Source: an uncultured SAR86 cluster bacterium (GTDB lineage: Bacteria > Pseudomonadota > Gammaproteobacteria > Magnimaribacterales > D2472). Taken from it: DNA of 42,497 nt. This document shows positions 25,507-31,688 of the stretch, piece by piece. Location of the stretch: positions 1-42,497 of the forward strand of contig CACDVW010000009.1 of the NCBI GenBank assembly GCA_902556355.1, in the 5' to 3' direction. Under the pieces are notes generated by a model. The model did not search any database. It had not been told where the DNA came from and saw only the letters and a program-made list of their open reading frames with translations. Positions within the stretch are counted from its first letter, which is position 1, and the number at the start of each line of letters is the position of its first letter. A program made the translations under genes and the position numbers.

Positions 25507-26367
25507 TTAGATGTCTGAATATGGGTCCTCTCCGGTAGGGGGTCTTCTATAACGCTTATATTCCCAAGAATAATCTATTGGGTTTATATTAATTAATTCT
25601 TCGATACTTTTGTTAAGTGATAGTTTGTACTCACTATCATTATATATTGATTTTTTACTGGGTTTGATGGTGATACCAAGCCTATTTTTGCCAAACGAGT
25701 TAAGACAAATAAATACACCTGGCTTCTTTGTTTTGTATACCATTGATGAGGCTAATGTTGTTGTATATGCATCATTGTTAAAAAGTTTTACGTATTCACC
25801 CATGCCTCTTTGTGGAACTTGATCAGCAGCTATACAAATGGTTTTGCCGGCTTTAAATGCTTGATAGATTTTTCTTACGCCGTTCATGTTAGTTTCATAA
25901 ACCTTGTTAGTTTTTCCTTCTCTTTGTTTTTTTACAAAACTGTCAAGTGCTTTAATTTTAACTTTTTTATAAAGCGTGGTCGTTTCGCTTTTAGTATTTA
26001 TCCATTTAAGTAACATATCTACGCTTCTATTATGGATAGCAATTACGGCAACACCATTCCCATCATTGATATATTTATTGAGAAGAAAATTATTTTCTAC
26101 TCTAAATATTTTTTTTCCTGAAATATGAATTGGTCTACTCCAAGACTGAATAGTTTCATAGCCACTTACCAATGTCTCTATAAAACTTTGTGATGCAAGT
26201 TTTTCAATTTCATCTTGGTTTAAGTTTTTATAACTCATCTTTAGGTTTTGAAATGTTACTTTATATCCATTGGATAACTTATATATCCCGGTTTTAGAAA
26301 TAGAAGAAACGATAAGTCTAACTATTGCTATGGGAAATAAAGATACTATGTAAAATATAGATCTCAT
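25507..26367 (-). CDS. Lipid A biosynthesis acyltransferase family protein (LpxL/HtrB-like)
   Basis: Inner-membrane acyltransferase of the LpxL/LpxM family, which adds secondary acyl chains to lipid A. It has 286 residues, with an N-terminal membrane anchor at about residues 3-22. The HX4D catalytic motif is in AIHNRSVDML, followed by AADQVPQRGMGEYVKLF, which corresponds to the family's DQ/GxxVxFFG segment, and ASSMVYKTKKPGVF. It is about 15-20 residues shorter than E. coli LpxL. In Pseudomonas an htrB gene lies in the same neighbourhood, between glyQ and trkA. Directly upstream is a second, broken copy of its first 35 codons (see 26392-26499). The exact acyl chain and acceptor cannot be told from sequence. 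Confidence 0.85.
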   Translation of the reverse strand: MRSIFYIVSLFPIAIVRLIVSSISKTGIYKLSNGYKVTFQNLKMSYKNLNQDEIEKLASQSFIETLVSGYETIQSWSRPIHISGKKIFRVENNFLLNKYINDGNGVAVIAIHNRSVDMLLKWINTKSETTTLYKKVKIKALDSFVKKQREGKTNKVYETNMNGVRKIYQAFKAGKTICIAADQVPQRGMGEYVKLFNNDAYTTTLASSMVYKTKKPGVFICLNSFGKNRLGITIKPSKKSIYNDSEYKLSLNKSIEELININPIDYSWEYKRYRRPPTGEDPYSDI

Positions 26368-26520
26368 CGTGATTGCTTTTCCAGTGGTAATTTAATATGC
26401 ATTAGATAGCTTATATACCCCAGTTTTAGAAATAGAAGACACTATATTATTTACAAGAGATATTGGAATTAGGGATACTATGTAAAATATAAACTTCATT
26501 GTGATTACTTATCCAGCGTT
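26260..26520 (-). repeat. Tandem duplication, 132-base period, at the head of the acyltransferase gene
   Basis: The segment 26260-26388 (first codons and about 21 bases of leader of the acyltransferase) is repeated at 26392-26520. The two start codons are 132 bases apart. Over the 105 coding bases compared by hand, 82 are identical; the leader bases before each ATG also match (19 of 24). The copies abut. The downstream copy (nearer the gene) is the working head; the upstream one has lost its continuation. Confidence 0.85.
26392..26499 (-). pseudogene. 35-codon remnant: duplicated N-terminus of the upstream-facing acyltransferase
   Basis: Open frame of 35 codons plus TAA, whose product matches the first 35 residues of the adjacent acyltransferase at 26 positions (shared core VSSISKTG and YKLSN). 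It contains the whole membrane anchor and then stops where the repeat unit ends, 24 bases before the acyltransferase ATG. Of 18 changed codons, 9 are silent. That is too many for a copy drifting without constraint, so either a full second gene existed and was later deleted, or the short product or its leader still matters. Its leader resembles that of the intact gene, including a CTGGA-type ribosome binding site. Pseudogene is my preferred reading; a leader peptide is the alternative. Confidence 0.6.
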
Positions 26521-26629
26521 TGATATATAATCTTAATTGATTTTTATAGTTATGGATTTAATTTCTATAAATAGTTTATTTATTATTAATTGGACATATG
26601 TTCCATTTTATATGGATTAGGAGAGTACA

Positions 26630-27985
26630 TTGACCGCAAAAACAATGGATGATTTAGTATCTTTGTGTAAGAGAAGAGGTTTTATCTTTCAATCTGGAGA
26701 AATATATGGCGGATTGCAGGGCATGTATGATTATGGTCCTTTGGGTGTAGAACTAAAAAATAACCTAAAAAATGCTTGGTGGTCATCTATGGTCTATGAA
26801 AACGATAATATTGAGGGTTTAGATGCTTCTATATTATCAAATCCTACAGTTTTAAAGTATTCTGGTCATGAAGATACTTTCTCAGACCCCATGGTTGACT
26901 GTAAAACATGTAAATCAAGGTTTAGAGAAGATCAGCTACCTGAAAGCTGCAATAAGGGTAAATGTGATTTTACTGAAGCGCGACAGTTTAACCTTATGTT
27001 TAAAACAAGCGTTGGACCAATAGACGATGGTACTTCATTTGCATACTTAAGGCCTGAAACTGCACAACAAATATTTACAAATTTTAAAAACGTTGTTGAT
27101 TCTTCTTCAAAAACATTACCTTTTGGCATTGCACAAATAGGCAAAGCATTTAGGAATGAAATAACGCCTAGAAATTTTATCTTCAGAGTTAGGGAGTTTG
27201 AGCAAATGGAATTGGAGTTTTTTGTAAAGCCTGGAACTGATGAAGATTGGCATAAGACATGGGTTAAAAAGAGACTTGATTGGTGGGAAAAACAGGGTGT
27301 GCCAAAAGATAATATAGAGCTCTATGATGTACCTAATGATGAGTTAGCGCATTACTCAAAGGGAACGATTGATATTATGTATAAGTTTCCTCATGGACTT
27401 GAAGAATTAGAGGGTATAGCGAATAGAACAGATTTTGACTTAGGCTCACATACAAAAAATCAGGATGAACTTAATATATCTGCCAAAGTTATGCCAAATA
27501 ATAATTCAAATACAAGATTGGCAATTCAAGATATAGAGTCAAAGAAATGGGTAGTTCCTTATGTTATAGAGCCTTCTGCTGGTGTAGATAGGGGTGTTTT
27601 GGCGCTCATGAATGAAGCATATAATGTTGAAGATTTAGGTGAGGGTAAAGAAAGAATTGTTTTAAAGCTTAAACCACATCTTTCGCCCATAAAAGCCGCT
27701 GTAATTCCGCTGAAAAAAAATAATGCTGAACTAGTTAATAAAGCCTCTGATTTAAAAAAGAGATTGCAAAGCTTAAACATAGGGAGAGTTGTTTTAGAAA
27801 ATACAGGTAATATAGGTAAAGGCTATCGAAGACATGATGAAATTGGTACGCCATTGTGTATTACAATAGATTTTGAGAGCTTGGAAGACAATTCAGCTAC
27901 AGTTAGAGATAGAGATACTATGCAGCAAAAAAGAATTTCTATTGATGCTTTGCCAGACTATTTAATAAAGTGCATAAATGAATAG
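26630..27985 (+). CDS. glyQS: Glycyl-tRNA synthetase, dimeric (single-chain) type
   Basis: Charges tRNA-Gly with glycine. At 451 residues in one chain, this is the alpha2 class II enzyme found in eukaryotes, archaea and some bacteria, not the alpha2-beta2 GlyQ/GlyS enzyme usual in gammaproteobacteria. Evidence: [25 protein letters not shown] at the N-terminus, a Cys cluster C91/C94/C107/C112 in the insertion that often binds zinc, motif 2 [25 protein letters not shown], motif 3 [16 protein letters not shown], and a C-terminal anticodon-binding domain from about residue 355. It starts with TTG 26630, with AGGAGA at 26619-26624. It occupies the syntenic position of glyQ-glyS. plsC begins 3 bases after its stop. 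Confidence 0.95.
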
Positions 27986-27988
27986 ATA

Positions 27989-31688
<3,700 letters not shown>

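Follow-up and report, generated by a model that had tools for sequence, protein, structure and literature searches.

Partial tandem duplication of an LpxL/HtrB-superfamily acyltransferase gene start in SAR86 bacteria, most likely a neutral scar

Partial tandem duplication of a gene can leave a truncated 5' fragment behind as a pseudogene scar. Some bacterial genes have translated leader peptides or upstream ORFs, and a conserved peptide or codon pattern is expected of attenuator-type leaders, albeit not of every upstream ORF. In PMC5361080, homology-facilitated illegitimate recombination is proposed for orphan T6SS immunity genes, with the displaced part being retained, and the same recombination is cited there as proposed for the 3' regions of Rhs. 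The gene start analyzed here invites comparison with each of these systems. It lies in the window, by which we mean the whole 42,497-nucleotide stretch of DNA under study, which is contig C9 of a draft SAR86 genome (G000); among named relatives, SAR86 isolate AG-447-B02 is the closest (94% protein identity). Among the matches listed in literature searches on SAR86, recombination, lipid A and acyltransferase, none named SAR86, and no relevant paper was apparent from the listing for partial duplication with leader or microhomology.

The duplicated gene start and its surroundings

The intact gene at this locus (Table 1) matches Pfam family PF03279 with 90.9 bits (cut-off 22.3), which places its product in the LpxL/HtrB lipid A acyltransferase superfamily, and its translation contains HNRSVD, an instance of the HX4D/E catalytic motif of that superfamily. 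All 15 of its NCBIfam matches fell under their cut-offs, the LpxL lauroyltransferase subfamily proper (TIGR02207) scoring 85.9 bits against 297.8; because even the best match (PRK08905, 119.5 bits) is under its cut-off of 281, we give the gene no named subfamily. The divergent neighbor gene is presumably of the glycyl-tRNA synthetase type, and its N-terminal motif was found upstream of the acyltransferase in the window and in all 23 relatives examined. Just past this neighbor, at 27989-28693, lies a second acyltransferase-type gene, which resembles 1-acylglycerol-3-phosphate acyltransferases with a score under the curated cut-off.

Table 1. Coordinates of features at the duplicated gene start, numbered along the window
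Feature	Position	Strand	Basis
Intact acyltransferase gene, LpxL/HtrB superfamily, 286 codons + stop	25507..26367	-	Pfam PF03279
Inner repeat copy: leader end + first ~38 codons of the intact gene	26255..26384	-	Direct repeat
Inner leader, 24 bases, without the conserved upstream motif	26368..26391	-	Upstream 48 bases of 16 genus genes
Outer repeat copy, 132 bases upstream, 78% identical	26387..26516	-	Direct repeat; z = 21 against shuffles
Outer frame: 35 codons + TAA	26392..26499	-	ORF list
Conserved promoter-like motif GATTATATATCAA, -33 to -21 of the outer start	26520..26532	-	Printed upstream sequences
Divergent neighbor gene	26630..27985	+	ORF list; starts 131 bases from the outer ATG

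A preliminary description of this DNA had claimed a tandem duplication of the gene head, and a repeat search bears this out: two gapless copies of 130 bases stand at a spacing of 132, and the match of outer to inner copy reaches z = 21 against dinucleotide shuffles of the upstream region. The counts given in that description for the spacing, for identical residues (26 of 35) and bases (82 of 105), and for silent codons among the changed ones (9 of 18) were exact when recomputed by script; put the other way, the outer and inner heads of G000 differ at 23 of 105 bases and at 18 of 35 codons, nine of them silent and nine replacing. Since 132 is three times 44, the outer frame is in frame with the intact gene, from whose ATG (26367, minus strand) it is separated by 24 bases. 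That the frame ends in TAA at this distance stands as first described, but the accompanying statement that TAA and repeat end coincide exactly is insecure, since the gapless repeat continues for another 5 bases. In G000, the 8 bases that follow codon 35 agree with the gene's own codons 36-38 at five positions and with its leader at two (6 versus 5 over 12 bases), and in the sister species G014 the corresponding 12 bases score 5 for the gene versus 6 for the leader. Homology of the outer copy to the gene stops within about codons 35-38, with the gene's leader directly after. Over 8 bases, the sequence following codon 35 in G000 is closer to gene codons 36-38 than to the leader, and over 12 the two are nearly even, so that the TAA could have come about by a nonsense change in codon 36, which reads AAA in the gene; alternatively, it may be located at the junction. 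The outer peptide matched zero Pfam or NCBIfam families at the E-values used. An assembly artefact is vanishingly improbable even for an incomplete draft (47 contigs, 75% complete), given that the copies differ at 22% of bases and that the separate record of isolate AG-447-B02 has the same arrangement.

Position suggests how the outer frame may be expressed. All 13 unduplicated genus genes shown have the upstream motif, GATTATATA(T/A)CAA, at -33 to -21, and it likewise precedes the outer copies in G000, G014 and a third genome, G012. Neither G000 nor G014 has it ahead of the intact gene, which follows directly on the tail of the outer copy; in these two genomes the motif stands 132-141 bases farther from the intact gene than in unduplicated relatives. 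A diverged form of the motif precedes the intact gene of G012 as well, and in that genome the outer frame is disrupted; no conclusion can be drawn from two cases. We infer that the motif is a promoter -10 region, an assignment that rests on its conservation because a promoter scan of 26200-26720 neither listed the motif nor found an excess of sites (3 versus 3.8 in shuffles). One weak promoter match occurs at the same place in each repeat copy, but its second hexamer falls inside the coding part and it thus supplies no upstream promoter for the gene at its own start. With the motif only before the outer copy, the outer frame probably heads the gene's mRNA, starting where the native gene started, and an upstream-ORF effect on expression is therefore plausible even if the peptide is meaningless. 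No terminator-like site was found in 26200-26720, and no RNA family in an Rfam search of 25900-26900 at permissive thresholds.

Head copies among relatives

The outer peptide was matched in 13 of 18 genus genomes, twice only in G000 and G014, and among the 16 genus genomes with a readable gene start it is the sister species G014 that has the same head copy. Its outer copy has 9 extra bases, a repeat of neighboring bases; the frame is open and stops at the corresponding TAA. G013 and G016 (90% and 89% protein identity) and G015 have a single copy, with the neighbor-gene motif at 168-169 bases versus 301-310 in the duplicated genomes. G012 has a head copy of its own, 185 bases upstream, which comprises about 47 codons plus the upstream motif and is frameshifted and out of frame with the gene; we count it as a separate event because it clusters with the G012 and G015 heads (96% bootstrap in a tree of heads). 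A third head copy was found in another genus (G050), 120 bases upstream and in frame, with 26 codons followed by TGA.

These cases come from a scan for upstream head copies that gave four matches (z of 21, 15, 13 and 8), the next one reaching 3.0. The scan took genes not cut by contig ends and covered 94 of 95 locus entries, G020 having too little upstream sequence; three entries repeat contigs already counted, which leaves 91 distinct, among them G048, where the gene is broken and the head unreadable. The G048 acyltransferase (L160, G048:C1:287249-288549; G048:C1:288143-288887) lacks its first 30 residues, has a TAG inside and is matched separately at its end. In three other families of the order, no head copy appeared in 37 loci plus two distant paralogues (best z 3.2); frames were anchored on the match in 39 of 40 loci, one having a stop in frame, and two of the 39 are the second, distant acyltransferases of G014 and G006. 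Viral contigs searched with the acyltransferase gene gave 15 pattern matches and zero confirmed relatives. Loci L039, L045 and L053, labelled Crocinitomicaceae, Neomarinimicrobiota and Flavobacteriales, carry SAR86-type acyltransferases (49%, 45% and 54% identity), a hint that these metagenome bins are mixed or wrongly labelled. The preliminary description had held that relatives lacking any second copy, together with frameshifts or stops in sister strains, would make the frame a neutral recent scar. On these terms the picture is divided: G013, G016 and G015 are without the copy and the separate copy of G012 is frameshifted, whereas the frame of G014 is open.

To judge how unusual such copies are, we applied the same test to 1,020 reading frames, taken from the window and from sixty 20-kb stretches in five SAR86-family genomes (three selected because they are carriers). 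The acyltransferase gene was returned in all four carriers (z of 23, 13.8, 13.6 and 9.3). Five other frames exceeded z = 6, the best at 10.6 and thus above the 9.3 of G050. Three of the five were inspected: the best (L229 2273-6719) looks like repetition within a repeat-rich protein, and the other two gave weak alignments that are short or gapped, one of them L224 7639-8233 (z 7.4). By the listing, the upstream regions of the remaining two overlap neighboring frames. Head copies thus occur in three lineages, with zero clear cases among 1,016 other reading frames. With the window's own lineage left aside, the comparison is 2 of 92 orthologues versus 0 to 2 of 1,016 other frames (Fisher P 0.007 to 0.037), where the loci are related, the denominators approximate (89 distinct other loci) and the counting of other hits our own judgement. 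For these reasons, we regard the evidence that this gene start is a duplication-prone site as only suggestive. The stronger proposal, that it is a recurrent SAR86 duplication site where the native start becomes an upstream ORF that some lineages keep to lower or tune an outer-membrane lipid enzyme, is distinctly improbable.

Sequence change in the outer frame and origin of the repeat

The number of silent differences between the two copies had been read as a sign of coding constraint on the outer frame, a dead copy being expected to show fewer. The pairwise excess is real: when about 25 changes were placed on an unconstrained head, with a transition bias of 2 and 72% A+T as settings of our choosing, at least 9 silent codons arose in 0.5% of the runs that stayed open (P ~0.005). 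The constraint reading does not follow, since the intact gene accounts for half of the path between the copies: by parsimony with G013 as reference, four of the seven placeable silent codons of the G000 copies fall on the lineage of the intact gene (codons 10, 12, 26 and 31), two on the outer lineage (9 and 16) and one on both (20); codons 19 and 32 cannot be placed. On the same reference, 4 silent and 2 replacing codons belong to the inner stem, 1 silent and 3 replacing codons to the outer stem, and 3 silent and 7 replacing sites to the outer tips, with four outer-versus-inner and two inner-tip sites unplaced and codons 3 and 16 shifting if G012/G015 is the reference. In the tree of heads, resolution among the outer, inner and G013 sequences is poor (bootstraps 35-51). 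The duplication is therefore a caution that a count of silent changes between head copies cannot by itself prove the shorter copy alive, because the intact copy adds silent changes of its own.

The outer copies of G000 and G014 can also be compared directly. They differ at 10 of 105 bases, with 7 replacing and 3 silent codons (NG86 dN 0.093, dS 0.130); the inner heads of the same genomes differ by 3 replacing and 1 silent. Over the whole intact gene the two genomes differ by 16 replacing and 57 silent changes, a ratio distinct from the outer 7:3 (Fisher P = 0.004). Against eight pooled pairs of intact heads (46 replacing, 44 silent), there is no difference (P = 0.33), and the outer copies cannot be separated from intact heads because the head is weakly constrained anyway and the changes number 10. 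A model with dN/dS of 0.28 yields at least 7 replacing changes in 11% of cases. When 10 bases were changed without constraint, the frame stayed open in 74% of runs (the indel uncounted), and at least 3 silent codons occurred in 36% of these. Both outer copies have lost arginine 17, which all 16 genus genes retain, and that of G014 has also lost proline 12, retained in 15 of 16. With 7 of 35 aligned residues differing between sister species, conserved positions included, the outer peptide lacks the conservation of peptide or codons typical of attenuator-type leaders. Thus, the changes in the outer frame match the neutral prediction and give constraint no support, although with so few changes the power is low and weak constraint would be compatible with them. 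The dN/dS check proposed with the preliminary description comes out as expected of neutral change at the same low power, and its suggestion that the peptide is still used gains no support from the 7:3 ratio or from the placeable silent codons, most of which lie on the side of the intact gene. Its other variant, in which translation of the frame serves as a leader for the gene, keeps the support of position, given the motif before the outer copy and none before the intact gene, but gets none from the peptide.

That variant can be put as a selected upstream ORF, kept open because its translation rather than its sequence tunes the acyltransferase 24 bases downstream. The frame does have the gene on one side and the promoter-like motif on the other, has stayed open in two species that share its stop and are set apart by an in-frame indel, and has an in-frame counterpart in G050 (offset 120), and head copies recur in three lineages; yet the peptide is without sign of sequence constraint, unconstrained frames survive 10 changes in most runs, the G012 copy is frameshifted and, at an offset of 185, out of frame with its gene, and neither an RNA family nor a terminator-like site was found in the regions scanned. 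On balance, we regard such selection as unlikely.

The preliminary description also offered a full-length second acyltransferase, mostly deleted since, of which the outer copy would be the remnant. An earlier functional life would explain the silent differences, but exactly one match at E ≤ 1e-25 was found in each of the 94 of 107 family genomes having any, so that the search for a full-length tandem paralogue in relatives turned up none. In addition, the outer homology ends at about codons 35-38 with the gene's leader straight after, and if recombination between repeats at corresponding positions had caused the deletion, a single chimeric gene would be expected rather than a stub. This origin is very improbable.

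Mosaicism of the gene complicates the history of the copy. Over codons 1-63, G014 is nearer to G000 (94-96%); over the gene body it is nearer to G013 (96%) than to G000 (89%). The intact gene is, as judged from these sequences, a mosaic between species, and for the same reason the G000 and G014 lineages may have come to share the head copy through recombination instead of inheriting it. Compared from about -450 to +1400, G013 and G016 (L032, L033) are near-identical around the gene, with 0-4 differences in each 60-base window; farther upstream they differ by 2-12 per 60 bases and, in one window, at 26 of 54, a pattern suggestive of a recent tract exchange. One possible origin, compatible with a scar though in our view less likely than not, is displacement: a diverged head would have come in with its own leader, joined by homologous recombination on one side and illegitimately on the other, and would have left the native head stranded upstream. 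On this model, the copies would have differed in large part before they came together. Such displacement would fit the G014 gene, with its G000-like head and G013-like body, and the heads of G000 or G014, which differ from that of G013 by 21-25% while the bodies differ by 4-10%; it would also fit the similarity of the inner G000 versus G013 comparison (9 silent, 10 replacing) to that of outer versus inner G000 (9 and 9). However, heads exceed bodies in difference in more distant pairs too, and the outer head (78% identity) is no nearer to that of G013 than the inner heads are (75% and 79%). Nor was a donor head found among the 15 genus genomes compared, where, apart from the sister, no head is nearer to the inner head than that of G013 at 75-79%. 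Without a donor or a closer match of the outer head to G013, divergence in place after a plain tandem duplication is at least as possible.

Interpretation and comparison with known systems

We favor a partial tandem duplication whose outer copy is a scar without preserved peptide function that possibly alters expression of the gene, and put the probability of this reading at roughly 0.6. The leader end and about 35-38 codons of the acyltransferase gene would have been copied in tandem ahead of it before the G000 and G014 copies diverged, through a join that we attribute to illegitimate recombination, possibly while a diverged head allele was being recombined in. Judging from the position of the motif, the outer frame would be part of the gene's mRNA and is probably translated, with translation of the gene restarted 24 bases on. 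Its open frame would then be a leftover that may alter gene expression, and the duplication is most likely a neutral scar, at most a non-specific upstream ORF. Two observations sit less comfortably with this interpretation. The G000 and G014 frames are both open and share a stop, and their sole indel is a multiple of three, which is compatible with chance but is also the pattern of a maintained frame; and recurrence in three lineages fits pure accident less well.

Interest in the locus is modest and lies in recurrence at one gene together with a displaced promoter-like motif. If the recurrence is real, this is a site where small duplications repeatedly turn a gene's own start into an upstream ORF, which would give streamlined genomes a simple way of gaining new translational control.

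Set beside a partial-duplication pseudogene scar, the SAR86 copy is alike in being a short direct repeat of a gene start with a join off the gene boundary, in having a stop inside or at the end of the copy, and in its decay in one lineage (G012); it is unlike such a scar in that the frame is open in two species and keeps the intact gene apart from the promoter-like motif. With translated leader peptides and upstream ORFs it has in common a short ORF in the presumed mRNA leader, 24 bases before the main start, but the SAR86 ORF derives from the gene's own head, comes with no terminator-like site or known RNA family in the regions scanned, and encodes a peptide without sign of constraint. The displacement of T6SS and Rhs parts, as proposed in PMC5361080, resembles the possible import at this locus in that the incoming allele is anchored by homology at one end and the old part is left beside it, and import of a diverged allele in this manner would account for a difference between the copies as large as that between two intact heads. 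It is unlike the SAR86 case, where the part left stranded would be a 5' head, where the alleles differ by about 22% instead of being unrelated, and where none of the genus genomes compared supplied a donor.
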